Virus record (IMG/VR): IMGVR_UViG_3300048583_000222
Coordinates: 1 to 64,000 of that record
DNA: 64,000 bases
Origin: a virus
Strand: one strand, 5' to 3'
The notes below the pieces were generated by a model. That model saw nothing but the letters and a program-made list of their open reading frames with translations, was not told where the DNA came from and did no database searches. A program made the position numbers and the translations under genes. This document shows, piece after piece, positions 3,781-60,639 of this stretch (position 1 is the first letter of the stretch; the number at the start of each line of letters is the position of its first letter).

Positions 3781-3781
3781 A

Positions 3782-8580: not shown

Positions 8581-11500
8581 TTACCTGCTGATCGTACTGA
8601 TATCGTGAGTGGTCAAGAATCTTACCCTGTTGATCTGGTTAAGGTATGGCGTTGCTTTGGTCCACTTCAGCGCTGCCTGATCCCAATCGTAGTCCTCACT
8701 CATGATGGCTTTCTTGGTGGCCTTCACGGCTTTTATGTAATCATTGATCACATCGAATGCAGGTATTGTGTTACGTACAAGATTGTTGGCTACATCAGGG
8801 GATGAGTAGAACTGCAGATCCTGGTTTACCCTGTTCATCATGTTCAGGATAATCATCAGTGATTCCTTAGTGATGCTGTCATCGTCGTCTCCTTCTCCCA
8901 TGACCGCTGTCAGCGCCAGTACTGCGCCCATCATGGAGAGTGTCCACATCATACCAGTGAAGTTCCTGCGCATGTTGTCCATGTCAACTTCAGAGTTCGC
9001 CAGCTTGCGTCCGTTGGTCATGGTCACGCCGCTGAAGTAGTCGGTGTTTCCAAACCATCCCGCAAACTGCCTGAGCATCACCTTGATGGATCCCTCCATT
9101 CCGATGTCCATATAAGTACGGTAACGTCCTTTGATCTTACGGTCCAACTGCTGGTCAAACTTCTCCTCTGCCCAACGTGCTGCCCATCCTTCTGTCAGCC
9201 AGCTTGCACGGAACTGGCCAATAAGTCTGCCGAGTATGTACTTGTTCATCTGTTTGGGAGAATTTTTGTCCATGTTACCCATGATGATCTGGGAGATACG
9301 TATTGTACGGTTGCGGAATTTCTCCCAGCTCTGCTGCTGCGTGACGTCTGCACTGTACCAGGCCGGATCTTCTTTGTACAGCCACTTGCCGTTCTCGTCG
9401 AAGGCTTCCCAAAGTGGAATGGTTTTCTTCTCCCCTGACTCTGTGGTCACTTCTACCTTGGTCTCAAGCATGGTAGCAATCATGATGGATCCTTTCATGT
9501 AGTAGTCTGAGCTGCGCAGAAACGTGTATGGATCAAGTGCTTTCTTGACCTTGTTCTTTCTGCTGGCCAGGTTGCTCTCCCCGTACTGGGAATCTACGAT
9601 GTCCCCCATCATACCACTACGCTCCATCAACGCCATGATTTTGTTTGTCATGGCATTGCCCCCTTTTCCAAACGTGAAGTACTTGCGTGTGGAGTTGGTC
9701 ATCATGCCCATGGCTTTCATGGCAGTCTTCATAGTGAAGTCCTTGTTCCCATTGGCGTAGATCGACATGGAGGCCATACCGAATGCCAGGTTCGCAAAAC
9801 CAGAGAATGGGTTAAATGCGAGTGCTTTCAGCTGGTTGATACCGATGAGCCTGTCTCCAAGTTTGGATAAGTATACGTTCTGCCCCATCTTCTCGTACTC
9901 GGTCAGCTCCTTATCGATTGTTTCCATCTTCGCACTGAGGTGGGTCATGCTGTCTCCCGGCTGTGGGTCAAGCATCCTGTCTTCCAGCTCTGCACGTTGG
10001 ATAAGCAGGTCTTTGACTTTCTTCACGATCTGACGGTGTACGACAGGGTTGGGTGAGTACAGCTTCATGCCTGTATTACCTTCCAGGTCCCGGGTTTTCT
10101 GGTACATTAAGTAGTCTTTGGCGTACTCCAGAGCCTTCAGCGTGTTGGTAAGTATTTCCTGATCTGTATTGTTGGCTTTACTACGTTCTATATGAATGTT
10201 GGTCAAAATGATTTCTCCCATGTCAACTGCATCTTTGACTGCTGCGAAATGGCGGTAATGCAGAGCCATGATACCAAACAATTCCGCAATACGAATCAGA
10301 TCCCGTGAGTACATCTCTGCCTCGGGTTGACGGTATACATATCGAATTGGTATTCTTCGTTTCTTATCCTGCTCAAACTCAGTCGCACTGATCGAATCCA
10401 TAACACGCCTACCCATAGAAGCTGCGTAGTCTTTGATACTGGTATCTTCCATCAGGTGTTTCTCCACGGCCGGCAGGAAGTTGTCATACATATCCCACTG
10501 TACATACACAGGAAGGTACCCTTTCAGTTCTTTCATGATGGCTGAGTAGTCGTCGTAGATCTTTTTCAACGGTTCAGTTTTCTGGATATACTCATACTTC
10601 TCATCATAGAATTCAGCTCGGCTCTTTCTCGGAAGCAGGATAGCGTACCGGTCCCCATGGTTGAGCTGCATCTGCTGGTTGGGATCATTCATCCCGGTGA
10701 AGAATCTGCGAGGAGAGTAGGTCTCTGCATACTCGTAGATCTCCTTATCAGCCTCATCACGGGTCAGGGTCCCTTCATGCATGCGCTGCTCTACCGCGGT
10801 GGTGTACACATCATAATCAGCCAGGTATTTCATGTACTTGTTACGCGCCTGCTCAATGGCATTGTCGGCGTCGAGTTCTGTACCTAGCTCACCAATGAGC
10901 CTTGTACGCTCGGCTGTGATGTCTGGTAAAAAGTTTCCATTTTCATCCAGTACCTTGGTGACGTCCACATATACCCCTATCTTCTTGATCTGTGTCCAGT
11001 ACCGATCCCAGGTTTTCTTGTAGGCCTTCGCCTTGTTTTTCTTATCCATCGGACTGCCGCTGATACCCTGCAGTTCTGACTTCCGTCTGCCCCTGAGTTC
11101 TGAGAGTGTGGAGAACCAGGTAGTGGAGTATTTCTGTACCAATCCGAATTCCGAGCCGGTCTCATTACTCTGCAGCATCATCTCATATACTTCCTCGCGC
11201 TTGCCGAATGCGTCGATCTGCTGCTCCAATGCCTGAAGTTTGTTGATCAAGCGATTGACATCTTCTCCTTTTCTTCTACCTGCATTTTTCAGCAGCAAGT
11301 CTATTTGCTGGACCAGTTGTGAACTGGAGTGATTTAGAGAGTATGCAAGTGCAGCGGCTGTATCCATATCTTTTAGCGCACTACCAAAGTCTATACGTTT
11401 AAGAGCACCCTCGCTGCGTAGCAACATGGCATCACGCAACCTAGCATCAAGCTTTTTACGAAGTCCTTCTGCTGTACTGGATACCTCTGCTAAAGCAGGA

Positions 11501-14500
11501 TCGATAGGTCCAAGTGTACCGTCAGGGTATAGAATACTCAGCATATTACCCCATACATCACTTACCCTCCAGGCAGCTACAAGATCAGCCTCCGTTTGAT
11601 CTGCTGTAGTCTCAGCTATACTACGAATCCAAGCAAGCTGTTGTTTACCAAACTCAGCTACGGAAGTCAGGTTAGCATGATCTTTAATGGACTGTATACC
11701 ATCGTCTATCTTTTTAATCTGGAGTTTTTTCTCTTCTCTGGCAGCACGATCTTCTGTACCGGCCATGGAATTGTTAATTGTCTCTTTTTGTTGTTCAAGT
11801 GCTGATATGATCTTGTTTAGTTCTGCAGATAGCGACTTGGGCTTTTTGGGGTTACCTTGTGTAAGTGCTTTAGGGTTAGCATGTACAATAATGTTCACAC
11901 CCTCACGCTCTGTCTTGATCTGCAGTCTCTCTTCCAGTACCTTTGCTGCCTTGGCTGCTTCCACCTCATTGCGGAATGTCCATGGACCAGGTGTACCGTC
12001 TGCTACTGTAGCGGATGCCGCAAGCAGCATGGAATTAGCCTGTAGGTTTACAGTCTTCGGATTGGCAGGATGCAATATGTACAGGTGTTCCTTTGTACGG
12101 GATACGGCCGTGTACATACCATTCATCACTTCCTTATCGGAGAACTTGTGCTGAGCAGGACCGATGAAGTTGTACTCATGTACGAACACGTGGTTGTACG
12201 TGGAGCCCTGACTTTTATGGGACGTCACCGTATAGGCAGGTTCGATGTCCACAATAAGCTTGGAGAGGGCTTCCATCATAGCTACGTACTTGGGATAGGC
12301 CAGAAAGTCTGCTCCTCCCGACATGCCACGCAGGTCCGCGGGAATGTTGAATCCCCCGTTTACGTACCGGTTCGGTTCGCCTTTGCGTTTATCACCTTCA
12401 ATGCGGTTCTTGATCTCGTAGTACGTATCCTTGGTAATGCCTTGGGTTTCCACTACAATGTTCTCCAGCTCACTGCCAAGGTCGAACTTGTAGTCAAATC
12501 CAGGCAGGTCGACTTTTACTGCAAACCATGGTTCGCCATCCCTGTCCAGTGCCACTGTGTCTTTGGTTACGCGTCCGGGAACTACAGATTCCACAATGAC
12601 ACGCTGCATGTTGAAGAAGTCTGCCTTGGCCTCAAGTTCACCTAAGCGCTGAGCAGTTTCCGCACTGAGTCTTGTGGGTTCATGCGCACTGTTGAATATC
12701 GCAATGTCTCCTGCACTGATCTTGGTGCTAGTAGCGATTGCTTCGCCGAAGCGCTTGGTGCGTACCATCAGGTTGAACTCTTCCCGTACCTTGTTGGTAC
12801 TCACGATCATCAAGGCATTTTTCGGATTCTTCATGTCTTTGCTGAGCTCGTTCATGAAGCTGTTGAAGAAGTCTTCCCGGCTGCTGAGATAGCTTACATT
12901 CTCAGAACTTACCCTGTTAGGGAATGCCACTACCGGGAACTTATATGTACCAGTACCTGCCCGTACACCGTCGATAGCGGCTCTGTACGCATTCAGTACG
13001 GTTACGACATCTGCTTTGTTGGTACGCATGTTCTGCGTCAGGGAGATGCCTGCCGTGTTGATGTACTCCCGAAAAGGCAGCGAATCGTTGACCTGGCCTA
13101 CGGGTGTAAGCTGTGCATAGTCTCCCATGAAGATGACCACCGCATTGTCTGGCGCATCTTGCTTCAGGTAGTTCATCAGTGTGTCATCGAGCATGGATGA
13201 TTCGTCAACTACGATGATACTGCTGCTGCGAAGTGGCTTCTTGAACTTGCCACGTTTCTGCTCGAACACGTCTGTACCTGTCTGCATGGACTTGATTGCA
13301 TTGCGCTTAAGGTCCAGTTGCGCATGTATGGTGTCGACCTTTGCATTGGGCAAGGTCTCTTTTACCTTTCCCAGGGCACTCTTCAGTTCCACAATAGCGT
13401 TGTGTGATGGAGCTGTGATCACCATCTTACGATCGGCAAACTCAGCCAGTACCTTGCGCAGGATAGTCGTCTTACCTGTACCACCCGCACCAGAGAGTAC
13501 GAACACGCGCTGTTCGAATGGGATGTTCTCTCCTGCCATAAGCTTGCTGTCCACATCCCCGATGAACGCTGGTATGCGGTCGATAGCCTCACGCTGCTTC
13601 TCATTGGCAAATACGCCCGGGAACAGTTCGTAGCGAGACATACCTACCTCTGGTTTATTTTCAGCAGGCTTCTTCCCAATCTTGGGGAATACGGGAGGTT
13701 GCCCTGGAATGATCGTATACTCGGTACCGTCCTCTATCCATGGTACGCTGTCCTCGTCTTCTTCGGGTTTACCGTAAAGACCCAGTACCTCGCTGATGGC
13801 TTTCTGACGCACCGGTTCTGGCATGCCATGCATGAAACTGTCGTGTACCTTGACTGCCACACCATCGGCTCGTACACCTACGATTACATCTCGGTCGTTA
13901 TATTCTACTGTACCGGCCGTGAGGATCTCGGTGACACCGCCCTGTTTCATCACGTGGATGATGTGCGGCAGCGCTTCTGCGAGTACAGAGTCGTGCTTGA
14001 CGGGCTCTCCGATCATGTTGGCAATGTTGTTGAACAGGGTGTTCAGAAAATCCCACACTGCTTCCAGTACAGAGCGCTCTCCGTCATACTTCATGTCGTT
14101 GAGAATCTTCATGGTCTCGGCGTTCGTCGTCGCGTGTGCAACAAACTCGTGCGGACTGGATGCCCAGTACTCGCCTTCATGTCCCTTGCGTGCAAACTCC
14201 CAAAGCTTGACGATATGGCGTGCAGATTGCATGACAGGATCATTGTAGTCGAAGTGCTTTTCGAAAACGCTGGTACTCTCCCCTTTAGTCCTGCGATACG
14301 CAAACTCTATCATAGGTAGTGTAGCCCAGTGCATCAGCTCGTGTACAAAGGTCTCCTGAACCCCCGCAGCTGCGTCAGGTCGTAAAGATGCCCCCGGAGT
14401 AACTTGCTGAAGTATAATACTGTTCTCAGGCAGCAAGTAAGCCGGTCTGCCGGAAGCAAATCCGATCTGCAGTCGTCCAGAACTGTTTGGTCCTCTGTTA

Positions 14501-17500
14501 GCGGAGGTCCTGTCATAGGTAATCTCCTCTATCAGGTCCTGGAATTCCTGGCTGCCGCTGAAGTTGTGCAACTCCGTGAGCAGGGTGTGGTACACGCCCG
14601 GGAGGGTACCGCTGTTGAGCATATGCGGGATGATGGTGTCGTTGATGTCCTCGACCTCAGATACTTCCTTGGTGATGCCCAGCACTTGGGTGTAGATCGG
14701 GTGCACATTGGAATTCTGCTCGATCTCCACCGGACGCTGCCCATTGGGGACCACAGTGTTGCCTTCACGAAGTACGGCCGGTGCCTGGTTATCTGCTACC
14801 TGCCAGTCCAGATTGAATGCACGGTTATCGGTCACGATGGAACGGTGAGTAGGTTCGGTGAGGTTGTACTCATCACTCATCCTGTTGCCAAGCGTGTCTA
14901 TGCGCGCATACTGAATGCCCGCCTCTTCATTTTCCGTAAGCTTCTTGTACAGTACCACATCACCACTCTCCGTACGATGGGAGATGTACGGTGTGAAGTA
15001 CTTCTTGATGCCTATGGTTACGATATATTTCTGCTGCTCTGCTGTAGGCCCGAGGTCCGGATCAGGATACGGGAAAGAGAAGAACTCAGGTACCCCTTCA
15101 TAGGTACGACCCGTTTCCTTGAATCCTGTATCTATGGAGATGGCTTTCTCGGGGTTGTGCCTGAACCACTGCTCGGTGAACACCCCGCTACTCAGCATGG
15201 AGTCCATGTTATTCTGCGCAGACTGCAATACGTTGAACCAGTTGGTCGCAGCCAGGTATCCAAAGGGTACATAGCGTACAAAGCTTTGGGCATCCTGTAC
15301 GCCTCCGGTGAGGAATGCATAGCGGACCAGATCTTCCCCCAGCATGCGTACATTCTTATCCGGACTGAGCAACAGGTCCAGCCAGGCCCGTACGTTCTCG
15401 GCATCGTCCATCCGTGTTACCTTGGCGGCGATGAAGTTCACCGAATGCGGGTCAAGTCCGTTACCCAGATCTGTATGCAGACGAGAGAGGAAGAAGTTGT
15501 TCTTGCCCCAGCTCAGCTGCGCTTCTGCTACGCGCTCTGCCAGTGATGGTCCATTTTCAGTAGCGTAGTACAGTCGTGCGCGTTCGGCAGTGATGTCTTC
15601 CACGCCCAGTGCCTGTCGTACGGCTTCGCTGTATACATAGGAACGTATGCCCTTCATCACGCTCTTCTGAATCTCCTCACTGATCTGGGTCATCGATTTA
15701 CGATTCGTGTAGGACTTGATATGGGTCAGTGTGTGCAGGTACACTTGGCTATGCGGCAGGTAATTGTCGAATAGGGATAGTGCCAGTGAGTTCACGGTAT
15801 CGAACAGGAATCCTTTCTCTCCACTTAGCAGGTCATTACCCCCGAGGATGACATCAGGTCCCAGTACGATCCCTGCTTTCTCATCCTTGTCAATGACCTT
15901 GAACAAGCTGCCATCAGTACCCTTCACGTCTTGTGTGGTCAGTGCAGCCATCTCACTCATTCTTGTACCCACTGCATGGAATTCCTGGAATGCCCTGAGG
16001 ATATCGCGTTGTGCCAGATAGTACTCACGCGTGTTCTTTGGCTTGTTGGCCATGTCAAGCAACTCTTTGGCGGTATATGCCTTGGCTTGTACCGGCTCTC
16101 CTTCTCCGATCTTCTTGCTAATCTCAGTGTAGAGCTGGTCGAATACGGACTGCTCGAGGTTAGGTACATATCCGCTCAGCATATCCTGTCCGCGTTCCAT
16201 CAGCAGATTGAATTGCCTGATGATGGGTTGGGACAACATGCGACTCACATAGGTGGTATTGACTGCTTTGCCTTCCTCAGTCTCGAGAGAAAGGATACCT
16301 GCAGCAGCCGGGTAAGTGTGCACAGTCAGGTTAATTTTATCGATCGTACGGTGCTTGGCGTGGTCAAGGAACTCCTGCAGCATAATGTTGATGTTGTCCA
16401 TCTTCGTACGAGTCTCTGGAATTCCACTGGCGGGTACATAGACTGAAGTACCATAGCCAGACAGATTCACCAATGATATCACACCGTCTTCGTCTTTGAA
16501 GATTTCAATAGGCGTTGGTATTTCTACCATCTCCTTGGTTTCTTCATTGTACTCCATAGTACCCAACTTGAGGTCAAGGTGCTGGATGGTGGCGAGAAAC
16601 TGATTGGTCTGTGCACCAAAGCCTACCAGGCTCTTGGCATCTTTCTGTGAAATGAAATCAGCCAACTGACTGCTGGCCCCAAAGAAGTTACCCACGGCAG
16701 ATGGTTTGGCCAGTTTCTTGGCTTCATCCTTAAGGTCAGGCTTGTCCAGCGGACTCATCATGACCGGGTACACGGAAGCTGCAGTGAGTATCTTGAAGTG
16801 CAGGTCAAAGTACTCCGCCATGATGCCGTCTGTCGCGGAAGCTGCTTTGTCGGTTATGGTATAGGGGCGACGATAGACGAAGAGTTTATCTACGTCAAAG
16901 TCAGACCCCATCTGTGTCGTGATGCCGGGAGGTACGATGATGGCGTCTCCCATATTATCAGGCAGAAAGCCGACGATCTTCATCGGGAGCATCGTGTTGT
17001 GCTTCGAAGTCGGGATACGGATACCAACCATCTCGAGTACTTCCAGGGGAAGCCTGGACATGTCCAGTGTACCATCCTCCAGCAGGAACTCGGTGATGAC
17101 CATCTTCTGCCCGTCTTGGAAGAAGTGGAAGGGCACCAGTATCTCGGCCGGGGTCACCGTACCATCTTCATTGAGTACAGGCATGCGCAACTCACGGGAG
17201 CCGTCATAGCCAGGTACCCAGGTTATTCCTGCGGTGGCGCCCAGTCCGGTGAGCATCCGGGTGATACCTACTGACGAGGCCTGTACGTATGACTTGCCCG
17301 GTACCTTGGTCTTCACCACGCCATCGATCATGCTCATCATGAGGTTGTGCAGTGGATCGGACAGTGAGGTGAAGAACAGTGGTGATATGGGACGGCCGTC
17401 TACCAGATGGGTGAGCGGAGCGAGTTCATTCTCTGAATAGCTTTTCTTCTTGCCCTCATCAATGAGACGCTTGATGAACTTGGCCGGATTGCGGAACCTG

Positions 17501-20500
17501 AACTTACCCTCGATCGCTTCGATGTCCAGTTCCTCTTTGAACTCCTCGATGTTCTCCTGTACCATTTGGATACGAAGCGCTTCTTTTTTCTCCCGGATGT
17601 TGTCCCTGTTGTAGGTCTGCCCATCCATCAGCGTTACACTGAAGTTCTCAGGCAGGTCAGATACAATAAGCTTGTTGGCCTGTGAGAAGATCTGGATCAT
17701 GTCCTTGTTACGATCATAAGGTACTTCCTGCTGGATGCGGAATCCTTCGCGACTCAGGCGCTGTACCGGCGCGAATTCTATGCTGTTGTAGTTGCCGTTC
17801 TTACCAAATGCCTGGAAGGGTTTGCCTGCACCGATCTTCTTGGCGGATATGAATTGTGCCCGGCGAATGCCGCGCTTCTCCATGTCCTTTCTCAGCTTAT
17901 CCAGTTCTGTGCCGGCAGTGAAGCCAGCGTACAGTGGGATAGCAGAACTCTTCACGTAGTCATGCAACAGGGCACCGCGATCCACATTGGGACGCTTGCC
18001 ATAGTACACGGGCTTGGTGATCTGCAGGGCAATGCGCTCGTGCCCTGCTCTGGTAAACTTTGCGAAGTTCGGGTCACGTACCAGTGCGATCATTTCATTG
18101 TACGTATCCTCGGCGAGCATGCCGAAGCGGAACATCACATCCAGATGCTCTTCCATGGTGACAAATTCCTGTGCATCCGTTACGTTCACATCTTTGTATG
18201 CAGGTATGCCCTTGATGTAATCCAGCGCTACCGTGTAATCATCCAGTACAATGATATCATAGTACATCTGCTCGGCAGTCCACTCGGTTTCTTTTCCCGG
18301 AGCGATGGGGCCGGCCAAACGTTTCTCGTACTCGATGAGGGTGTCAGCTACTGACTTCTTGTACACTTGTGCCGGGTCTCCGTACAGGAGCTGAGCCATG
18401 GATGTGTTGACCAGGAATGCGTTCATCGCGTAGTTCATCGCCACGAATTCAGAGAGTGCTTTGAGGTACGTTGGACGATCCACCCGTCGCTTATCGACTA
18501 TGTACACATCCTTGCGTGACACGCTGATCCCGGCTTGGGTATTGGCTACCTCTTTGATGTAGCGCTCATTGAACAAGTGTTTGCCAGTAGTCATGTCGAC
18601 CATGCCGGCTTCGTTGAACTTGCGCAGCTGTATGGCGGTCTCTTCTGTAATAAACTCGTTGAGCATTCGCTTCACCAGCTTGTCGAAAGCTTCTGTTCCT
18701 TTTCCAGGTGCATTGATGACACCGTCGCTGATCCATATGGTGCCCAGTTCCTCTTCAGTGATTTCTCCGGCATCCCTTCTCGCCTTCATGTTGGCGTAGT
18801 TGAACTGCGGCATCATGAAGAAAAACTTCTTACCCTGCTCGTACTGCTGATGGTCATCGTATATGTGTTCAGCACTGTTGGCGATCCTGTCGAATTCACT
18901 TTCAAACACGCTGTACAGTCTTTCCATCAGTACCAGTGAAGGCTTTCCTACAGCACCGGTCGGTGTACGCGGGATGTTCATGAACACTGGTGTACGGGAC
19001 TTGTCCGAGTGTGTAAGGCTCACGTAGTGGGACGATTCCCATCCATTGTTCATGTACATACCCAAGGCCATGAAGAGCTGGTCACGATCCGACATGTCAG
19101 TCCGCTCAGAGGCCGCTTTTCCCTTCATTTTCTTCAATCCCTCCAAATACAGCAGGTCGGCTTTCCTTCTGCTGGATGGATCATTCTCCCATACCTGCAG
19201 CAGCCAGTTGTTTCTGGCAAAGTCCGTATTTTTCAGCTGCTCTCTGTACACTCCTGACTCATCGACCAGGTCCAGGAAAGCATTGCTGAGGTAACTGTTC
19301 AGGATGTAGTCCCACACATTGTTCCCGGCAAGGTCACGGTGCGAGCTGTTGTATAGCATGTCAGCATGTCGTACGTAGATGCGACTGAGCATGTTCATGG
19401 TAGTATTCTCGGAGTACAGTGGATTGTTCTTCTCCAGCGTATTTTCAATGCCCTCCTCATCTTTTGTATTGAGCAGTTTAAGCAGGAACATGGAGAAGAT
19501 ACCATTACCTCCCCCGTCTTTTTTCTCAGACCACTCTTTGATTAGCATTTCCTCCCCAGACTTGTACAGGGTCTCGTACATTATAGGTGTGAGCATGATG
19601 CCGTTGTACTCAAACATCTTGGTGACCAGCTCCTTGGCTGCCTTGAAATAGATACTCCGCAGTTTTGCAGCTCCTGGTCCTTTAGCTCCTTCTATCCTGC
19701 GCTGGTTCTTTGCTTTCAGCTCCTCATAGTCTGCCTTCAGTTCATCTACCTTAGCAGGGTCAATGATATAGTAACCAGACTCTGTACGCTTCACCATAGG
19801 AGAACGCTTCTGGGCTTGCTTCCAGTTTTCCAGAACAAGCTTGCGGGCGGAGTATATGTTGGCATTGATCGTACGTATCTCTGCGTTGTCGTCCCAGAGT
19901 TTGTACTGGATCAGTGCGTACTGTGTGTAGGACTTGGTCATCACGGTGACGAATTCCCGGCGAATCTGTTCTGGGGTGGTGGAACTCTTCAAGCGCTGAG
20001 CCAGCTTGCGCAGGACAGGACTTCCGGATTCCAGTATTTCCATGTACTTGTCGAAGGAAGGTTTCGTGTTGGCGAGCATACCCGTGACGTTATCGTATAG
20101 GTTCTCCAGTTCAGCAAGGGTAGGGGTACCAATAAAAGAGGGTATGTTGACCAGACCACGCTCCTCTACAAACGGTACGATCTCCAGCAGCACATCGCCT
20201 TCCTTGGCTTCGTGTTTCTCCGCAGCGATCGCTGTGCCATCCGGACCAGTGCGCATGAAGTCCAGGTTCTCACGCTGATCACCTTCATTGTATTCCTTGG
20301 CTTCCTGTGCCGTCATGGGTTTTACTGGGCGAACCACATACCACGTGTCTCCAAGCTTGATGCTCCCGGAGTCCCCGGGTTTCAGGGAAAGGCCGATGTC
20401 GGCGAGCTGTTTTGGCGTGCGGACCGAGTACTTGCGGGTACCGTCAAGGATCTGCTGTATGTACACATGCCCCAGCGGCAAGCCGATCACCTTGGGCTTG

Positions 20501-23436
20501 AGCAGAGGTCCTTCTTCCACATTCTCAGTAGCTGCTATGTAGAGCTTCAACCTGCCCGATGCCGTAGCTTTTGGGTCCAGGGTGAAGATCAGGTCATTGA
20601 AGTTCTCAATCGCCTTGGCTTCCGTGGATACAAGCTCGCCGTCAGTGAGCTGGTCTGTAGCCCCGTTGCTATCCAGTTCGTTGACCTTGATGCCATAGAT
20701 GGCCAGACGACGAATGGTAGCCTTCATCAAATATTTCAGGGAGTACAATACATCCTCCATGTTGCGTGCATAGGTAGCACCCATCTCCGGAGTGATATGG
20801 GTATAATGCGCAGTACCCTTGACCATGACTGCCTTACCTGCGGCACGCGTCTGGTAGATACGCAGCAGCAACTTGAAGCGCTCCTCTATAGTGTCCTTCA
20901 GGGTCTTCACGTCGACACGTTTGCTTTTATTGACTTCCTGTGCGGTAAGGTAGATGATCGAGTCTGTAGCCTGTGTCTGCTGGAACTGATCAAAGAATCT
21001 TCCGCTCTTGCTGCCATCGGCATTGCGAATCTCTACAAACTGCTCGGCCCGGGCTTTGCGCAGCAGTTGCTCATCGATGCTTAAGGGTTCCCGTAGGGTT
21101 TGATCCTGCAGTACCATGTCAGAGGCAATGAACCTCACGGCCAGGTTGTCCATCAGTCCCCTGAATCTTTTCTCAAATATGATGTTGTCCGGGATGGGCC
21201 CGGCTTTGACAAACATGTTGGCCATTTCCTTGGCGCTGAATCCGCTCAGCATCCTGTCATGGGAGGTGTACCCAATCAGGAATTGCATGGTGGGGTTCTC
21301 CATCGCGGTTTGGTACAGGGTACGCATGTTCTCGATCACGCGTTCATCAGGCATCCGGTTACCGGCATTCTTACCACCAAGCTTTCCTTCTACGGTGACC
21401 AATGGGTATGACTTTCCTTCTGTACCGGTGGATATCTTGGAGTGCTCCCCGAGTACTACCCACTTACCCTTGGTACCTCGTACACTGGGGAATTCCTTGG
21501 GAGTATACTCTCTGCCTGCGGCAACTGCTGCTGCGCCTGCTCCGTGAAGTCCCTGGTTGTTGGCGCCGAAGACGAACACTTGGTTCTCACCCAACGCAGT
21601 AACCAGGCCTTCGTAGGTACTGTTCTTTACCACGGTCTCTCCTATTGCCGCATCCTTTGCAGAAGAAGGAGTCATGCCGGTTGTAAATACATTCTGAGTG
21701 TGCTCGTATACATTCTTAATAGCAACCTCTCCTGACGGCGTTAGCTCTCGTGTACCTATACCTGCAAAGTTCTTGGTAAGTGTAGGAGTACCTTGCCATA
21801 CGAACTTGTTACCATCCCACTTGAACCACTGCCCTTTTTCCTGGTCGAATACATTGACAGGTTTGCCAGCATCGATAGCCATTTGGACAGCCCAGCCTGT
21901 TCCTCCTTTTACTTCTGTGAGAGAAGTCAATTTCCCAATAGCAAATACTGCATCACTGTTCTTAACCTGCATCCAGTTACGGGCCAGAAGATCCATATAC
22001 TTCTCAGGCTTTCTTTTCAAGGTCTGATTAGCCAGCATCACTTTTTCCTTTCCCTCTGCAAAATCAGCATCGTTTACCTCATCCTCTGGTTTGGACAAGG
22101 GGTTTAGGGTCCCATGCCAATAATGCTTGTGATTAGTTACTCCAAAGGTTCGTCCAATCCGATCCCATGCTGTGTCAGATCCTTTTGCACCGCCAGAGTG
22201 ATTAGTTAGTGCAGCCATTTCTGTAACAGGATCCGCAGCCATGCCCAGTACAATGGCATCTGGTAAGCTGTCCCAGGCGTTCATCCATTCCGCTAAATAC
22301 TTGGATTCTGCAAGGCTTTCATTTAATATGTTGGTAGCAGCTGCAAATGCTTCTGTATATAAGGTAGGGTTCTCCTTGTTAATGTTCATTGCATTAAGCA
22401 GGAAGTCCATAATCTGTTGTAGGAGATTATCGTATTTACGGCCATCCATAGCTGGCAATTCCTGCAATTTCTTGATAAGTGTTCCATTGGTAAACAGGGC
22501 AACAAAGAACTCATCTTCATTGTACATACCATAGATACCTTCCTTAGTAGCAGGGAGATATCCTCCCAAGTGCTTTTTCGCATACTGATACAGCTCTCTG
22601 AAGTCAGAGCTAATTTCAACATTATCCTGCAATTTGCGCCATGACAGGGCATGTAGAATCTCGTGGATTAGAATTTGATCCATACGTGCACCGGAGTTTC
22701 TGGCTATCACGATTTCGTTTGCTGACGGGTCATATATACCAATAGCTTGTATCGGACTGTTACCCATACGATTAGCACTGATAACAGCTGAATCTTGCGT
22801 TGTGATCTCTATATTGTTGACCTCTGAAAATTGCAGTAGGTGCTCTGCAATGGTAGCAAAGCCGATGTTACTATCTGCAATGCGTTGCAGTACATCTGAC
22901 ACTTTGTTAGGCCCATCCTTTGTTACGTACTCTTCCAGTGTGAGGGTTTTGCTACCATCTGCTTTAGACACTACAGCTCCTGCTGCTTCAGGTCTGGGTC
23001 GGATCTCTATACGTGCAGTAACGGGATTGTACACAATCAGCAACTTCTTGTACAGTGGTCCGGAGACTTCGGTAAGTTGCTTATCCAGTGCCTTGGCCAG
23101 TTTTCGATTGCCTTCGTACTCAAAGAGGCGCCCGGGGATCCGCTTAAGTCCCCCATTCCAGTTCTCCACCAGCTTCATGTGCTGGGCTACATGGGACACA
23201 CTTCCCAGTCCAAGTACCTGCAGCGCAGCGTCAAGTGTGGGCTCACCCTGAAGGGTACGCGGGATTCGTACGTTCTTGTTCCGAACATCTGTCCAGTCAC
23301 CGGTCTTTCGCAGGTATTCTACACTGCGTAACATGTACCAGGCTTGTGTTGCGATCTGCTCTCCCATTAACTGAGAAAGCCCCGCGAACAGCATTGAAGG
23401 TTGACTGTTGGGGGCTTCGAAATTACATTGTAACAT
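8581..23436 (-). CDS. Giant polyvalent virion protein: RNA polymerase core, SF1 helicase, two HExxH peptidase-like domains, SLOG and macro-like domains
   Basis: 4951 residues in one unbroken frame. Visible segments in order: HEILH metallopeptidase-like motif (257-261); SLOG-type nucleotide-binding fold (about 405-570; GGAKGSDTAW, FAGIGTRELTP); A1S_2505/macro-like domain (about 610-750; VFVFGANNQG, HGAGAAA); ASCH/PUA-like stretch (about 985-1040; IQQILDGT); RNA polymerase double-psi-barrel region with the catalytic triad DFDVD (2179-2183) preceded by IVGFLPDNMGD; second HELMH (3032-3036); SF1B RecD/Dda-like helicase (about 3266-3850) with Walker A GAGGTGKTT (3316), VVDESS, a Gln-containing motif III (AQLTPVG) and TAVSR motif VI; and a C-terminal conserved region with a hydrophobic segment near 4830. 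By analogy with crAss-like virion RNA polymerases it is packaged and ejected to transcribe early genes. It starts 3 nt after the 1746-aa gene. Confidence 0.9.
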   Translation of the reverse strand: MLQCNFEAPNSQPSMLFAGLSQLMGEQIATQAWYMLRSVEYLRKTGDWTDVRNKNVRIPRTLQGEPTLDAALQVLGLGSVSHVAQHMKLVENWNGGLKRIPGRLFEYEGNRKLAKALDKQLTEVSGPLYKKLLIVYNPVTARIEIRPRPEAAGAVVSKADGSKTLTLEEYVTKDGPNKVSDVLQRIADSNIGFATIAEHLLQFSEVNNIEITTQDSAVISANRMGNSPIQAIGIYDPSANEIVIARNSGARMDQILIHEILHALSWRKLQDNVEISSDFRELYQYAKKHLGGYLPATKEGIYGMYNEDEFFVALFTNGTLIKKLQELPAMDGRKYDNLLQQIMDFLLNAMNINKENPTLYTEAFAAATNILNESLAESKYLAEWMNAWDSLPDAIVLGMAADPVTEMAALTNHSGGAKGSDTAWDRIGRTFGVTNHKHYWHGTLNPLSKPEDEVNDADFAEGKEKVMLANQTLKRKPEKYMDLLARNWMQVKNSDAVFAIGKLTSLTEVKGGTGWAVQMAIDAGKPVNVFDQEKGQWFKWDGNKFVWQGTPTLTKNFAGIGTRELTPSGEVAIKNVYEHTQNVFTTGMTPSSAKDAAIGETVVKNSTYEGLVTALGENQVFVFGANNQGLHGAGAAAVAAGREYTPKEFPSVRGTKGKWVVLGEHSKISTGTEGKSYPLVTVEGKLGGKNAGNRMPDERVIENMRTLYQTAMENPTMQFLIGYTSHDRMLSGFSAKEMANMFVKAGPIPDNIIFEKRFRGLMDNLAVRFIASDMVLQDQTLREPLSIDEQLLRKARAEQFVEIRNADGSKSGRFFDQFQQTQATDSIIYLTAQEVNKSKRVDVKTLKDTIEERFKLLLRIYQTRAAGKAVMVKGTAHYTHITPEMGATYARNMEDVLYSLKYLMKATIRRLAIYGIKVNELDSNGATDQLTDGELVSTEAKAIENFNDLIFTLDPKATASGRLKLYIAATENVEEGPLLKPKVIGLPLGHVYIQQILDGTRKYSVRTPKQLADIGLSLKPGDSGSIKLGDTWYVVRPVKPMTAQEAKEYNEGDQRENLDFMRTGPDGTAIAAEKHEAKEGDVLLEIVPFVEERGLVNIPSFIGTPTLAELENLYDNVTGMLANTKPSFDKYMEILESGSPVLRKLAQRLKSSTTPEQIRREFVTVMTKSYTQYALIQYKLWDDNAEIRTINANIYSARKLVLENWKQAQKRSPMVKRTESGYYIIDPAKVDELKADYEELKAKNQRRIEGAKGPGAAKLRSIYFKAAKELVTKMFEYNGIMLTPIMYETLYKSGEEMLIKEWSEKKDGGGNGIFSMFLLKLLNTKDEEGIENTLEKNNPLYSENTTMNMLSRIYVRHADMLYNSSHRDLAGNNVWDYILNSYLSNAFLDLVDESGVYREQLKNTDFARNNWLLQVWENDPSSRRKADLLYLEGLKKMKGKAASERTDMSDRDQLFMALGMYMNNGWESSHYVSLTHSDKSRTPVFMNIPRTPTGAVGKPSLVLMERLYSVFESEFDRIANSAEHIYDDHQQYEQGKKFFFMMPQFNYANMKARRDAGEITEEELGTIWISDGVINAPGKGTEAFDKLVKRMLNEFITEETAIQLRKFNEAGMVDMTTGKHLFNERYIKEVANTQAGISVSRKDVYIVDKRRVDRPTYLKALSEFVAMNYAMNAFLVNTSMAQLLYGDPAQVYKKSVADTLIEYEKRLAGPIAPGKETEWTAEQMYYDIIVLDDYTVALDYIKGIPAYKDVNVTDAQEFVTMEEHLDVMFRFGMLAEDTYNEMIALVRDPNFAKFTRAGHERIALQITKPVYYGKRPNVDRGALLHDYVKSSAIPLYAGFTAGTELDKLRKDMEKRGIRRAQFISAKKIGAGKPFQAFGKNGNYNSIEFAPVQRLSREGFRIQQEVPYDRNKDMIQIFSQANKLIVSDLPENFSVTLMDGQTYNRDNIREKKEALRIQMVQENIEEFKEELDIEAIEGKFRFRNPAKFIKRLIDEGKKKSYSENELAPLTHLVDGRPISPLFFTSLSDPLHNLMMSMIDGVVKTKVPGKSYVQASSVGITRMLTGLGATAGITWVPGYDGSRELRMPVLNEDGTVTPAEILVPFHFFQDGQKMVITEFLLEDGTLDMSRLPLEVLEMVGIRIPTSKHNTMLPMKIVGFLPDNMGDAIIVPPGITTQMGSDFDVDKLFVYRRPYTITDKAASATDGIMAEYFDLHFKILTAASVYPVMMSPLDKPDLKDEAKKLAKPSAVGNFFGASSQLADFISQKDAKSLVGFGAQTNQFLATIQHLDLKLGTMEYNEETKEMVEIPTPIEIFKDEDGVISLVNLSGYGTSVYVPASGIPETRTKMDNINIMLQEFLDHAKHRTIDKINLTVHTYPAAAGILSLETEEGKAVNTTYVSRMLSQPIIRQFNLLMERGQDMLSGYVPNLEQSVFDQLYTEISKKIGEGEPVQAKAYTAKELLDMANKPKNTREYYLAQRDILRAFQEFHAVGTRMSEMAALTTQDVKGTDGSLFKVIDKDEKAGIVLGPDVILGGNDLLSGEKGFLFDTVNSLALSLFDNYLPHSQVYLHTLTHIKSYTNRKSMTQISEEIQKSVMKGIRSYVYSEAVRQALGVEDITAERARLYYATENGPSLAERVAEAQLSWGKNNFFLSRLHTDLGNGLDPHSVNFIAAKVTRMDDAENVRAWLDLLLSPDKNVRMLGEDLVRYAFLTGGVQDAQSFVRYVPFGYLAATNWFNVLQSAQNNMDSMLSSGVFTEQWFRHNPEKAISIDTGFKETGRTYEGVPEFFSFPYPDPDLGPTAEQQKYIVTIGIKKYFTPYISHRTESGDVVLYKKLTENEEAGIQYARIDTLGNRMSDEYNLTEPTHRSIVTDNRAFNLDWQVADNQAPAVLREGNTVVPNGQRPVEIEQNSNVHPIYTQVLGITKEVSEVEDINDTIIPHMLNSGTLPGVYHTLLTELHNFSGSQEFQDLIEEITYDRTSANRGPNSSGRLQIGFASGRPAYLLPENSIILQQVTPGASLRPDAAAGVQETFVHELMHWATLPMIEFAYRRTKGESTSVFEKHFDYNDPVMQSARHIVKLWEFARKGHEGEYWASSPHEFVAHATTNAETMKILNDMKYDGERSVLEAVWDFLNTLFNNIANMIGEPVKHDSVLAEALPHIIHVMKQGGVTEILTAGTVEYNDRDVIVGVRADGVAVKVHDSFMHGMPEPVRQKAISEVLGLYGKPEEDEDSVPWIEDGTEYTIIPGQPPVFPKIGKKPAENKPEVGMSRYELFPGVFANEKQREAIDRIPAFIGDVDSKLMAGENIPFEQRVFVLSGAGGTGKTTILRKVLAEFADRKMVITAPSHNAIVELKSALGKVKETLPNAKVDTIHAQLDLKRNAIKSMQTGTDVFEQKRGKFKKPLRSSSIIVVDESSMLDDTLMNYLKQDAPDNAVVIFMGDYAQLTPVGQVNDSLPFREYINTAGISLTQNMRTNKADVVTVLNAYRAAIDGVRAGTGTYKFPVVAFPNRVSSENVSYLSSREDFFNSFMNELSKDMKNPKNALMIVSTNKVREEFNLMVRTKRFGEAIATSTKISAGDIAIFNSAHEPTRLSAETAQRLGELEAKADFFNMQRVIVESVVPGRVTKDTVALDRDGEPWFAVKVDLPGFDYKFDLGSELENIVVETQGITKDTYYEIKNRIEGDKRKGEPNRYVNGGFNIPADLRGMSGGADFLAYPKYVAMMEALSKLIVDIEPAYTVTSHKSQGSTYNHVFVHEYNFIGPAQHKFSDKEVMNGMYTAVSRTKEHLYILHPANPKTVNLQANSMLLAASATVADGTPGPWTFRNEVEAAKAAKVLEERLQIKTEREGVNIIVHANPKALTQGNPKKPKSLSAELNKIISALEQQKETINNSMAGTEDRAAREEKKLQIKKIDDGIQSIKDHANLTSVAEFGKQQLAWIRSIAETTADQTEADLVAAWRVSDVWGNMLSILYPDGTLGPIDPALAEVSSTAEGLRKKLDARLRDAMLLRSEGALKRIDFGSALKDMDTAAALAYSLNHSSSQLVQQIDLLLKNAGRRKGEDVNRLINKLQALEQQIDAFGKREEVYEMMLQSNETGSEFGLVQKYSTTWFSTLSELRGRRKSELQGISGSPMDKKNKAKAYKKTWDRYWTQIKKIGVYVDVTKVLDENGNFLPDITAERTRLIGELGTELDADNAIEQARNKYMKYLADYDVYTTAVEQRMHEGTLTRDEADKEIYEYAETYSPRRFFTGMNDPNQQMQLNHGDRYAILLPRKSRAEFYDEKYEYIQKTEPLKKIYDDYSAIMKELKGYLPVYVQWDMYDNFLPAVEKHLMEDTSIKDYAASMGRRVMDSISATEFEQDKKRRIPIRYVYRQPEAEMYSRDLIRIAELFGIMALHYRHFAAVKDAVDMGEIILTNIHIERSKANNTDQEILTNTLKALEYAKDYLMYQKTRDLEGNTGMKLYSPNPVVHRQIVKKVKDLLIQRAELEDRMLDPQPGDSMTHLSAKMETIDKELTEYEKMGQNVYLSKLGDRLIGINQLKALAFNPFSGFANLAFGMASMSIYANGNKDFTMKTAMKAMGMMTNSTRKYFTFGKGGNAMTNKIMALMERSGMMGDIVDSQYGESNLASRKNKVKKALDPYTFLRSSDYYMKGSIMIATMLETKVEVTTESGEKKTIPLWEAFDENGKWLYKEDPAWYSADVTQQQSWEKFRNRTIRISQIIMGNMDKNSPKQMNKYILGRLIGQFRASWLTEGWAARWAEEKFDQQLDRKIKGRYRTYMDIGMEGSIKVMLRQFAGWFGNTDYFSGVTMTNGRKLANSEVDMDNMRRNFTGMMWTLSMMGAVLALTAVMGEGDDDDSITKESLMIILNMMNRVNQDLQFYSSPDVANNLVRNTIPAFDVINDYIKAVKATKKAIMSEDYDWDQAALKWTKATPYLNQINRVRFLTTHDISTISR

Positions 23437-42529: not shown

Positions 42530-44065
42530 TTACGCACCAGCGATACACTGCAGATCGAAGCATGTGTTAGCACGCAGGATCTGGATACCAGCTGATTTGA
42601 AACGTGTATAAGATGACTCGTCCATATCAGAAGCCAGCAGGGAAGCTGAAGACTCCTTGTCGATAGAGAACGAACCTGTCATGAGTTGGATAGAACGTGG
42701 AGCAGGAGTCAGACCGGCGATCACACCATGGAGGAATGAACGGCCTTTCTGAGCAACGTGCTGAATGTTCGGCTGACCATCGTAGTCAGAATCGTCGATG
42801 AATACACCGCGATATGACTCCAGGGCCCATCCAGTCTCAGGGTGTACCACACCACCTGCACTCTGGGCCATGGCTACTTTACCATAGTCGAAGATCGGGT
42901 TGTGCTTTACCTTGATGGTGTAGCCATCGATGTGGTAGAACCCATCGAAATAACCACCCAGCATGAGGTTGTAGCCTGAACCAGTAACAAACTTCTCGGC
43001 GATATTGCCCCAGTCAGTCAGCATGTTAATGCCCTTCTCTTTCATGGCCTTGTCGAATTCCCTGAGGAATCCACGTCCACCATGGAAAGTAAGGCTCTTA
43101 CCAGCTTGGTCCTGCTGAGAGTACAATACGTCGCCTACCAGGTTCTGAATGAAGTTGTAGGTCAGTGAAGAGTACGTGGCTTTGTTCTGCACCTGCTCGA
43201 GGATACCAGAACCACGTGGGATCACCTTACCGGTCAACAGGTCCTTCAATGGAACAGTACCATCAGCAAGCCTGTTGTAACGGCTGTACCAATACGTGTG
43301 TTCACACTGAGATAACCAGTCGTTCTCGAACTGCCACATGAACCAATCCATCCACACGTTGGTAGATTTACCTTCGTGATCAGTGATGTTGATCTTCATG
43401 ATCTTGTTCGCAGCATTACCGGCCCAGCTCATACCAGCCCTGAGGAAGCCCATTTGGTTCTTGTATTGACCAGGCATAGCCATGACCGATTCAGTAGAAC
43501 GTGAGCGGGATTCAGGAACGGCAGTGAACATCGGTACCCATGAAGCGCCTTCTGCTACCTCTGTCAAAGGACAGAAATCGCTGGGAGCTGCAGGGTCAAG
43601 TACGCAGGTATATTCCCAATAACCACCGACATTCTCGGGGTCCTTGCGAACGTGTGCCTGCACACCGCGTGCTGACTGGATGATGAAAAACCTCTTGATG
43701 AGATTGTCTGAGAAGTACAGTTTGAATTCACCATGCCCGATACCAGGCTTGTCGCCACCGGTATAAATAGACTTGGTTACTACTGCAGCTTTGTGCAGAC
43801 GTCCCATAACAGGGTAAGTGAATTGAGGGTCATCCAACTCGACGGCTGAGCGTTTCAGCGCATTACCGCCATAACCGATGCCACCCATGGTCATCAGAGA
43901 AATGGGATAACTCTTGTTGTAATCACCAAGGATGAAGGTGAGCTTCTTGGTCAGTTCAGAGGGTGAGCCCTGCTTCTGATGGTAGAAGTTCTCCTCATCG
44001 AGCAGCGACTTAGTGTCGAGGATCTGCTCAGAGACTTGATACTTTAAACGAGGAAGCGTGTTCAT
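42530..44065 (-). CDS. Major capsid protein, crAss-like
   Basis: 511 residues, HK97-fold major capsid protein by family pattern. Signature stretches that I associate with crAss-like capsid proteins are visible: SRSRSTESVMAMPG with NQMGFLRAG shortly after (about 205-240), VWMDWFMWQF (about 250), GGRGFLREF (about 330) and YDGQPNIQHVAQKGRS (about 430-450), ending with RANTCFDLQ. Length is normal for the group. It is preceded by the scaffold gene and followed by a strong terminator, as expected for the most abundant protein. This is the main evidence for the crAss-like assignment. Confidence 0.9.
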   Translation of the reverse strand: MNTLPRLKYQVSEQILDTKSLLDEENFYHQKQGSPSELTKKLTFILGDYNKSYPISLMTMGGIGYGGNALKRSAVELDDPQFTYPVMGRLHKAAVVTKSIYTGGDKPGIGHGEFKLYFSDNLIKRFFIIQSARGVQAHVRKDPENVGGYWEYTCVLDPAAPSDFCPLTEVAEGASWVPMFTAVPESRSRSTESVMAMPGQYKNQMGFLRAGMSWAGNAANKIMKINITDHEGKSTNVWMDWFMWQFENDWLSQCEHTYWYSRYNRLADGTVPLKDLLTGKVIPRGSGILEQVQNKATYSSLTYNFIQNLVGDVLYSQQDQAGKSLTFHGGRGFLREFDKAMKEKGINMLTDWGNIAEKFVTGSGYNLMLGGYFDGFYHIDGYTIKVKHNPIFDYGKVAMAQSAGGVVHPETGWALESYRGVFIDDSDYDGQPNIQHVAQKGRSFLHGVIAGLTPAPRSIQLMTGSFSIDKESSASLLASDMDESSYTRFKSAGIQILRANTCFDLQCIAGA

Positions 44066-45214: not shown

Positions 45215-47632
45215 TTACTTTACTGCTTTCTTTTTGGCGGCAGCCTTCGCCTTGAGTTTATCGGAACGCTCTTTTGCGGCTATACCTTCAAGTTGTACAC
45301 CTGCTTTGAGCTTCTCCACGCCCATCTTCTCACTGTGCATCGCACGTTTGTTCTCCTCGGCAGCCATCTTTGTACGCTCATCACTCATGATCTTGAAGCG
45401 CTTCAGTACGCGATCAGCGATTTCGGTGGCGTCAGGTACGCCGTCTCCGTCATTGTCCTCACTCTTGGTGAAGGATACAATGTCGTACTCACCTTTGATC
45501 ATGGTGTTCTGATCCTTGCGATCCCACTCCTTGTCAATGAGCTGCTCTTTCAGCGTGTTCTCGAAGATGGCAAACTGCTGCTCGAGTTCAATCATTTCCT
45601 TCTTGGCTTCCTGCTCACTGGCGGCTCCATCCTGCGCGGCCTTGGCAGCAGTCTGCTCAATGAACTTGAGTTTCGTACGAAGCTCGGCGACGTTCTCGGT
45701 CAGGATGATCTCCAGTATGGTCGACGGAGAAGCCCCGTTCTGCAGCATCTCCTGCGTGTACATCTTCAGCTCATCGAGCCTGCGCTGCTCTTTGGCGGAG
45801 GTCTTCACCATTACGTTCAGGCAAGCGTTGCAGTACTCCACCGGATCCAGGTCCAGCAGCATGGTGTCCATGAGGTCTGAGGTGTACAGATCTTTGGTGC
45901 CTTCTGAGACCAGTACTCGGGAGAATTCCAGCATCTGGTTGAGGTCCTCATTGACGAACTCTTCAAAAGAAGTGAAGATGTTGTCGGTGATAATATTGCT
46001 CTGGAACAGGGAACGTTCGTTGTTGGTGGGCGAAGACGAGGCGAAGGTCTGACCCTTGCGTGGCATGGTGATGCCCAGTACGTCGTCCCACATCTGGCGG
46101 TAGTGGTTCTGCAGGTCAATGAGCTGCTTGATGTTCTCGTACATGCTCATGTCCAGGACAGTGTACTGGTTCCAGCTCTTGTCCACCTTGCGGTTGTCCC
46201 GGTCCATCAGGAAGTACCCCATGGCCTCTCCATAGTAGAAGAACTTCTCTTCATCCCAGTCTCCATGGGTAGGTACGGCGTTGACGTCGATCAGCAGGAT
46301 CTTACCCTTGCTTTTGGCAATCATCCGCTCAATGGTCCAGTTCAGGATCATGACCATGATCTGGAAAGGCAGCCCGATCTGCATCACGGAGATGTTCTGG
46401 GCGTGGGTATCGGAAAAGGCACGGCCGTTGTACGGTAGTGCACCATTCTGTATGGGTAGCGGTCCTTCTTCACAGTAGATGTCTTCCATCAACCGGTAGC
46501 ACTGGTAGATCTCATCGCGGTACTCTATGCGGGAAGTTTCCCCAGCCTCCTTGTCTACCGGGTAGTCCTCGTCGACTTCAAGCTCCTGCATCTCGCCGGT
46601 CATGGGATCAGGGAACGTAATGATCTTGACTCCCTTCTTACCTCTCCACACCACGTGGTAGACGTGCACCAAGTCTTTGGTGGTATTGATGCTTTCCTTT
46701 AAGTAGTTGTAGAACATCTGCCCATTGAAGGGCAGGTCCTGGTTGGAGGCTGTACGACTGTAGATCTGCTCTATGCTTTTCTTACTCAAGGTCTGGTAGA
46801 ACTGCTCCACTGCATCAGCCGTAGTGAGGTAGTACCGACGTACTGCCCAGGCTGCATCCTTCACGAAGGTGGCATTGGGGCTCATGGCATACTTGAGTTC
46901 CAGTGGGGAGATGCGCTCGTATTCGAACTTCCCATTCACGATATTCTGGAACGAGTAGGCCCATCCTGCAATCAGATAATCTTTCATCATCTGGGTACGT
47001 TTTCGCAGGAAAGACTGCTGGTCCAGGGTCTTGTTCAACCAGCGCTGACCTTTGATGGCCTGATTGTCAGCATAGGTAGCCAGGAACCTCTCTTGTATAG
47101 CAGCTGGTAGTGGAATCTCCTGCTGCTGGGGTTCTTCCATTCCCGGAACACCTTCTTCTGCTGCAGTAGCCTGCATGGCTTGGGCAAAGTGTTGGGTCAG
47201 GTTCTGTACCAGTGCAGCCTGGGAGCGTTCCTGGTACTCGTTGTATGCTTTTTCCCCGGTGTTCACCACCTGAACGACGAAGGGACGTTGGGAGAGTTCG
47301 TTAATGAGCAGGTCAATAGAGGTACGTAGTATATTGATGGGACGAATCTTAGCAGGGAAACGCTTGTGCTGTGCCTTCTTAGCGTTGAGTGGGTCGGTCA
47401 GGTGGGTAAACCACGACAGGGGAAACTGGTTATTGTACACTTCATAGAGCTGAGAGATCGACATATCACTGGTCGTGCCTCCAGTAGACATGGTCCAACT
47501 GTTGCGGATGTAGTACTCAGCGTTCTCATGGAACCACTGAGGTGTCTTCATACTGTACGGAATGATCTGATTGGGCTTGCCCATGAAGTTTTCAGGAGCA
47601 TCATCCAGTACCGAGGGTTGTTTCTTGGCCAT
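45215..47632 (-). CDS. Portal protein
   Basis: 805 residues, length normal for crAss-like portals. The segment RFPAKIRPINILRTSIDLL...QRPFVVQVVN (about 88-125) is typical of the family. A wing domain follows, with an acidic DEDYPVD stretch and a long C-terminal coiled coil (about 640-800; KMAAEENKRAMHSEKMG) ending in a Lys/Ala-rich barrel tail. It forms the dodecameric gate through which TerL packages DNA. It sits between TerL (1-nt gap) and scaffold. Confidence 0.85.
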   Translation of the reverse strand: MAKKQPSVLDDAPENFMGKPNQIIPYSMKTPQWFHENAEYYIRNSWTMSTGGTTSDMSISQLYEVYNNQFPLSWFTHLTDPLNAKKAQHKRFPAKIRPINILRTSIDLLINELSQRPFVVQVVNTGEKAYNEYQERSQAALVQNLTQHFAQAMQATAAEEGVPGMEEPQQQEIPLPAAIQERFLATYADNQAIKGQRWLNKTLDQQSFLRKRTQMMKDYLIAGWAYSFQNIVNGKFEYERISPLELKYAMSPNATFVKDAAWAVRRYYLTTADAVEQFYQTLSKKSIEQIYSRTASNQDLPFNGQMFYNYLKESINTTKDLVHVYHVVWRGKKGVKIITFPDPMTGEMQELEVDEDYPVDKEAGETSRIEYRDEIYQCYRLMEDIYCEEGPLPIQNGALPYNGRAFSDTHAQNISVMQIGLPFQIMVMILNWTIERMIAKSKGKILLIDVNAVPTHGDWDEEKFFYYGEAMGYFLMDRDNRKVDKSWNQYTVLDMSMYENIKQLIDLQNHYRQMWDDVLGITMPRKGQTFASSSPTNNERSLFQSNIITDNIFTSFEEFVNEDLNQMLEFSRVLVSEGTKDLYTSDLMDTMLLDLDPVEYCNACLNVMVKTSAKEQRRLDELKMYTQEMLQNGASPSTILEIILTENVAELRTKLKFIEQTAAKAAQDGAASEQEAKKEMIELEQQFAIFENTLKEQLIDKEWDRKDQNTMIKGEYDIVSFTKSEDNDGDGVPDATEIADRVLKRFKIMSDERTKMAAEENKRAMHSEKMGVEKLKAGVQLEGIAAKERSDKLKAKAAAKKKAVK

Positions 47633-60488: not shown

Positions 60489-60561
60489 GGAGCAATAGCA
60501 AAGTTGGTCTATGCGGCGGACTGAAAATCCGAAGATTGTGGTTCGATCCCACATTGCTCCA
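60489..60561 (+). tRNA. tRNA-Phe (GAA)
   Basis: 73 nt. Acceptor GGAGCAA / TTGCTCC (7 bp), T8-A9, D-arm GCA...TGC with TTGG in the loop, anticodon loop CTGAAAA (anticodon GAA), T-arm TGTGG-TTCGATC-CCACA and discriminator A. Only the outermost anticodon-stem pair is mismatched (G-A). CCA is not encoded. Confidence 0.9.
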
Positions 60562-60639
60562 CAAACTAAAGTAGGTTTTTCACAGGGACTTGATCTCCTA
60601 GCCTGTTTCTACATGCTGGACTTTTTTATCTTTACCTAC

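Follow-up and report, generated by a model that had tools for sequence, protein, structure and literature searches.

A giant, predicted crAss-like virion RNA polymerase carries a Dda-type helicase cassette, two zincins and likely counter-defence domains

The DNA analysed here (the window, 64,000 nucleotides, 49% G+C) belongs to a 95,727-base virus record (IMGVR_UViG_3300048583_000222, or G000), in which no end repeat was found. Read leftwards, the window encodes a terminase, a portal protein, a capsid protein, tail proteins, a 1746-aa gene and, at the end of this series, a 4951-aa gene (Table 1). The terminase, in a search of named phages, and the portal and major capsid proteins, by PHROG, are homologous to their counterparts in crAss-like phages, placing the source among the Crassvirales. 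From these genes it appears to be a crAss-like phage beyond close reach of the named families in the searched collections, because its terminase matches crAss-like phages at only ~30% identity. Megablast and blastn returned no close DNA relatives among GenBank phages, and no close protein relatives of the whole 4951-aa chain were found in IMG/VR, where a profile of the RNA polymerase (RNAP) core was needed.

Within the structural block, the 1159-aa virion structural protein is, judged by its position, a probable tail stabilisation protein. The PHROG scan gave no name to a 187-aa gene located where an IHF-like gene, or genes 74/75, would be expected. The 1746-aa gene occupies the same place in the order as phi14:2 g067 and is of similar size, with no detectable sequence match between the two. 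Collagen-like repeats are present in probable tail fibre genes, both in the window (5158-7182) and in another locus (L003:9346-10563; compared loci are given L numbers throughout), and a tRNA-Phe gene lies within the early region at window positions 60489-60562. A family A-like DNA polymerase is distributed over several ORFs of the genome (G000 65826-69550; L002:5826-9550), with LAGLIDADG-like and HNH-like ORFs between them, the pattern that intron or intein insertions would be expected to leave. No shared promoter motif was seen upstream of the early genes, only A-runs resembling ribosome-binding sites.

Table 1. Features of the 4951-aa chain and of the neighbouring virion genes, in window coordinates
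Feature	Residues (aa)	Position	Strand	Evidence
Single ORF, 4951 aa, ATG start	1-4951	8581..23436	-	4951 codons without internal stop
Conserved C-terminal region	3871-4951	8584..11826	-	corresponds to a downstream gene in relatives (position of phi14:2 g065); C2 at ~4359-4946
Helicase cassette	~3163-3870	11827..13950	-	collinear flanks in BLASTP; block missing in L008, L009, L010, L011
Dda-type SF1B helicase domain	3270-3800	12037..13629	-	profiles, fold; motifs I, II, III, V, VI intact
Walker A GAGGTGKT	3316-3323	13468..13491	-	motif
Second zincin	2967-3199	13840..14538	-	profile E 3e-29; HELMH at 3032, EFVAHA ~3097
Two-barrel RNA polymerase (predicted)	1371-2929	14650..19326	-	phi14:2 gp66 E 8.6e-29; AlphaFold2 + Foldseek to 6vr4 E 2.8e-43
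Catalytic DFDVD	2179-2183	16888..16902	-	three aspartates invariant, 49 sequences
First barrel (DPBB-B), probable	~1800-1900	17737..18039	-	invariant lysines; barrel assigned by homology to gp66
A1S_2505-family (possibly macro-like) domain	602-779	21100..21633	-	NCBIfam NF049995 E 8.7e-12
SLOG/DprA-like nucleotide-binding domain (weak assignment)	401-545	21802..22236	-	PHROG_768 E 6e-10
N-terminal zincin metallopeptidase domain	189-356	22369..22872	-	profile E 3e-21; HEILH at 258, EFF ~309
Large gene upstream of the 4951-aa ORF	1746 aa	23440..28680	-	synteny only, with phi14:2 g067
Virion structural protein	1159 aa	33933..37412	-	PHROG_15100 E 4.5e-20
Major capsid protein		42530..44065	-	PHROG_11589 E 7e-75
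Portal protein		45215..47632	-	PHROG_6547 E 7e-93
Large terminase		47634..49721	-	PHROG_6681 E 6e-84; best matches crAss-like phages, ~30% identity

The 4951-aa gene is a real, uninterrupted frame on the minus strand; the plus strand of the same interval is full of stops. The initial annotation had described one protein here, in which a crAss-like virion RNA polymerase with a double-psi-barrel DFDVD signature is joined to a complete SF1B helicase with Walker A at residue 3316, two HExxH peptidase motifs and nucleotide-ligand domains. This overall composition proved right: both HExxH motifs lie in profile-supported zincins, the helicase is intact and Dda-like by motifs and by fold, and domains of nucleotide-ligand type are present. 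A chain of the same composition would be expected by chance to contain 0.04 DFDxD and 0.10 HExxH motifs, and each of the domain assignments is backed by more than a motif alone, through profile and/or fold matches.

Homology and structure prediction both indicate that the chain holds a crAss-like, two-barrel, virion-type RNA polymerase. Residues 1744-2192 match phi14:2 gp66 (PDB: 6vr4), with GSDFDVDK in the window aligned with GSDFDIDK, and profiles widen the homology to the full extent given in Table 1; identity to named relatives is 27-30%. D2179, D2181 and D2183 are invariant in 49 relatives, and so, in 49 sequences, are K1808, K1829 and K1867 (columns K206, K227 and K265 of alignment A2). 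An AlphaFold2 model of residues 1603-2700 (pLDDT 86, pTM 0.85) retrieves 6vr4 first in Foldseek (TM 0.77), followed by QDE-1 and then the P74 gp62 polymerase, making phi14:2 gp66 the best match by sequence as well as by predicted fold. The region around residue 2180 is thus predicted to adopt a double-psi-barrel fold, and the reading of DFDVD as a signature of this polymerase type is borne out. An N4-like virion RNA polymerase was also considered and set aside, since the core is of the two-barrel type and not a T7-like single-subunit core. Two of the compared RNAP genes are interrupted by ~490 bases at a similar place inside the core (L073:9291-9776 and L080:9310-9797), perhaps by a self-splicing intron.

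Searching IMG/VR with the RNAP-core profile yielded at least 80 loci, and giant single-chain polymerases are usual among these relatives: the complete RNAP ORFs have a median length of 4207 aa (n=67), and 57 of the 67 reach at least 3000 aa. In a set of 78 relatives, chosen for likeness to the RNAP of the window and giving frequencies that are not unbiased, the zincin is inside the RNAP chain in 65 (by profile) and the helicase in 19, where it is always C-terminal to the RNAP. The C-terminal domain is fused in 16 of the sampled relatives and is the next gene in most others, and the SLOG-like (8) and A1S_2505 (10) domains come before the RNAP in some relatives and after it in others. At least 20 other records contain RNAP-helicase chains, the named Crassvirales phage cr118_1 among them, and the design is hence not unique; only the window's chain, among the chains surveyed, combines RNAP, helicase and C-terminal domain. 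At L064:12933-17528, an RNAP chain and a zincin-helicase chain are encoded in two overlapping frames, possibly representing a frameshift or a split gene.

Both HExxH motifs sit in zincins of one family. Some 45-110 residues beyond the motif, its members share a conserved EF(V/I) segment, with a Glu suited to be the third zinc ligand. The profile of this family hits an internal virion protein at E 1e-13, a tetrameric ejection protein at E 9e-11 and, at E about 7e-6, the zincin of the N4 virion RNA polymerase (vRNAP), a zincin that directly follows the polymerase in that protein (PMC12633501, PMC5512222). One zincin family (profile A5; PDB chains 9sfn_G, 8vb2_A and 9pnr_A) spans ejection proteins and two unrelated virion RNAPs.

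The presence of two peptidases had led to the proposal that they free the parts of the chain by self-cleavage. In such a polyprotein the zincins would release RNAP, helicase and C-terminal products from the chain, either within the capsid or once in the host. This would accord with relatives in which separate genes specify the C-terminal part or the zincin, so that the parts can act apart, and with P1 DdrB, which is thought to self-process (PMC5512222). However, the first His of the zincin is lost in L015, L027, L034 and L055, and no HExxH was found in the zincin of L020, yet all five chains are still giant, and those of L015 and L055 still carry the helicase. In phi14:2, L076 and L087 the zincin resides in a separate gene, and the N4 vRNAP, with a zincin of the same family, is packaged unprocessed (PMC5512222). 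The relatives with inactivated zincins lead us to reject obligatory self-cleavage, and we consider a self-processing polyprotein improbable altogether. Processing of the 4951-aa protein is possible, though not needed, and the chain more likely works whole.

Two further domains lie between the N-terminal zincin and the polymerase. The first is 40-48% identical to modules of eight relatives, in which an NHSGGA...GGT pattern is strongly conserved. The SLOG fold claimed for it agrees with these conserved motifs and with its sole profile match, to a PHROG family named 'DprA-like', whereas Pfam, NCBIfam and PDB gave no match. For the second, earlier described as macro-like, we find a match to the N-terminal domain of the A1S_2505 family that lies at the cut-off (45.3 bits vs 45), and a homologue is present in the RNAP protein of cr112_1; the macro fold itself was not confirmed, with no match to a macro profile or structure. 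The SLOG and macro assignments are weak. Even as weak assignments, the SLOG-like and A1S_2505 domains would fit a proposal that gives SLOG and macro domains of phages a role against defence based on NAD/ADP-ribose (PMC9503650), and the chain likely carries counter-defence domains. At the opposite end of the protein, a C-terminal domain (about aa 4350-4951, including C2), on which the initial annotation was silent, is conserved in nearly all relatives; the C-terminal domain has no meaningful Pfam or PDB match.

The helicase matches the PHROG Dda-like profile (E 1e-56) and RecD2 (E 3e-22), and its fold matches T4 Dda (E 1.4e-22). In BLASTP against L008, the nearest RNAP relative, residues 1085-3162 and 3871-4951 of the window's chain are collinear with residues 462-2605 and 2692-3833, so that L008 is nearly continuous (2605 to 2692) across the helicase block, and L011 places the breakpoints in agreement (3170 and 3873). 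L018 and L014 are 56% identical, and a helicase block of 655 aa within the ORF likewise sets them apart; their last 47 residues beyond this block are 68% identical. Because relatives without it align end to end with the flanking sequence, the helicase can be recognised from these alignments as a discrete cassette between the zincin and the C-terminal domain. L040 shows the RNAP-helicase association without fusion, its helicase being encoded by a gene of its own (887 aa; L040:18245-20905) that lies a few kb downstream of the RNAP gene.

Outside the window (G000 70402-71868), the genome encodes another helicase, a standalone one belonging to the same broad family. In the helicase tree, the fused helicase of the window falls within an all-fused group of 12 (support 98/85) and the phage's own standalone helicase within a standalone group (support 99/99). 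We therefore reject the fused copy as a recent duplicate of the phage's replication helicase, forcing the pair together giving p 0.028. In the helicase tree the helicase label switches only 2-4 times, against at least 11 switches along supported branches of the RNAP tree, and a single origin of all helicase fusions is rejected (p 0.0045). The cassette thus entered RNAP chains more than once, and was then either exchanged or lost many times.

Such frequent gains or losses on the RNAP tree could also point to a passenger helicase of little use, whose insertion a flexible linker tolerates. The helicase of L055, and perhaps also that of L019, looks degraded, and the domain is thus not always kept. 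Against this, the motifs are intact in the window, Walker motifs are present in nearly all others, and the fused helicases group in old lineages of their own, not as recent copies in decay, which makes a passenger very unlikely in our view.

The two helicase forms were scored in 49 contigs with a length of 75 kb or more: the fused form alone is present in 12, the standalone form alone in 18 and neither in 18, while a single contig, that of the window, has both (Fisher one-sided p 0.007 for exclusion, on contigs that may be incomplete). Phylogenetically independent pairs show the same trend, not significant with only 1-3 informative pairs where at least 6 are needed, and the window itself, carrying a fused and a standalone helicase, counters mutual exclusion. 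The data are suggestive only of fused and standalone helicases being mutually exclusive.

The 4951-aa protein is probably carried in the virus particle, because its gene lies at the end of the virion operon in the same order as the phi14:2 proteins g065-g067, which are virion proteins by MS/MS. An enzyme that is produced late in infection but is neither part of the virion nor ejected would also suit a protein known from its sequence alone and located in the virion by way of its homologues. This we regard as highly improbable given the operon position, the homology to the MS-proven phi14:2 g065 and g066, and the cargo proteins of crAss001, whose gp47, gp49 and gp50 are carried in the virion and for which ejection with partial unfolding has been proposed (PMC10172136). 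The chain also has features of a polyvalent protein as defined by Iyer et al. 2017 (PMC5512222), namely several unrelated enzymatic domains (two zincins, SLOG-like, A1S_2505, RNAP and helicase) within a virion operon, and a zincin-like MPTase hub domain with HExxH and a downstream Glu whose profile matches the N4 vRNAP zincin. Polyvalent proteins with RNAP and zincin are known for N4-like phages (PMC5512222).

Taken together, we think it likely that this polyvalent virion polymerase brings in, together with the genome, a DNA motor as well as probable counter-defence modules, the helicase doing Dda-type work early and the chain acting whole. By analogy with its homologues, the chain would be a late product that is loaded into the capsid as cargo and enters the host by ejection along with the genome. 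The two-barrel polymerase, for which the predicted fold and the active site are found here and the activity is suggested by phi14:2, would be present in the virion and transcribe the early genes of the incoming DNA. The two zincins and the SLOG-like and A1S_2505 domains might target host proteins or nucleotide signals of defence. The Dda-type helicase could supply the phage genome with a DNA motor from the very start of infection, ahead of phage gene expression, and would most likely do early what the Dda-like helicase of the replication block does, clearing bound proteins and opening DNA. More tentatively, one may picture a virion-delivered machine in which the RNAP and a co-acting helicase work on one template next to counter-defence domains, with a cassette that is swapped and can replace the separate replication helicase.

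The main rival to an independent motor is a role in starting up the polymerase, in which promoter melting or strand separation by the helicase would let the RNAP initiate on incoming DNA that is double-stranded. The N4 vRNAP requires unwound DNA to start, and a helicase in the same chain, always C-terminal to the RNAP in 19/19 sampled fused relatives, would be in keeping with such a role. But most relatives have an RNAP that lacks a helicase, including L014, the 56% identical sister of L018, and the RNAP therefore does not need one. The distribution of the helicase, moreover, tends to complement that of the replication helicase and does not track RNAP features. We thus view transcription coupling as possible but rather unlikely, and favour the independent motor. 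Natural pairs with and without the cassette (L018/L014 and window/L008) make the benefit of a polymerase-delivered motor directly testable. Crassviruses, whose giant cargo proteins may do more on entry than transcribe, abound in the gut as well as in other environments.

Among known systems, phi14:2 gp66 shares with the window's chain the two-barrel single-chain RNAP, the invariant DxDxD, the barrel lysines and the genome position, and phi14:2 g065 shares the zincin and the C2 domain. In contrast to the window, phi14:2 has separate genes for RNAP (2180 aa) and zincin-C2 (1421 aa), and neither protein has a helicase, SLOG-like or A1S_2505 domain. The Flavobacterium phages Fpv3 and Fpv20 (Fipvunavirus) have a giant virion protein (gp32, 4287 aa, and gp33, 4419 aa, respectively) with RNAP then zincin, but theirs lacks the helicase, has C2 in the next gene and uses the active site DYDID. 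The 4946-aa QOR58373 of the uncultured phage cr118_1 (Besingivirus coli), nearly equal in length to the window's chain, shares with it the RNAP core (2775-3230) and the SF1B helicase (4433-4870), but has no zincin, SLOG-like or A1S_2505 domain by profile and C2 in the next gene. This locus (MT774379.1 16381-31221; L092) is publicly annotated as 'DNA helicase' / 'exonuclease V' despite its crAss-like RNAP core; the 'DNA helicase' of this named gut phage is a virion-type RNA polymerase plus helicase. The cassette shares fold and motifs with T4 Dda and Dda-like SF1B helicases, which are free enzymes, whereas the helicase of the window sits inside a polymerase chain.

Giant crAss polymerases are already known. 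We found no description of an RNAP-helicase chain in the text of the open literature, and an earlier mention elsewhere is possible; apparently undescribed are the SF1B helicase cassette in a two-barrel polymerase, the shuffled SLOG-like/A1S_2505 modules and the zincin common with the unrelated N4 polymerase. The N4 vRNAP, gp50, has the same giant virion chain plan of RNAP, zincin of the same profile family and large C-terminal region, with accessory domains that vary, but differs in its T7-like rather than two-barrel core, and no SF1B helicase has been described in it (PMC5512222, PMC12633501). The crAss-like polymerase chains thus share their plan with an unrelated polymerase, and take up modules.
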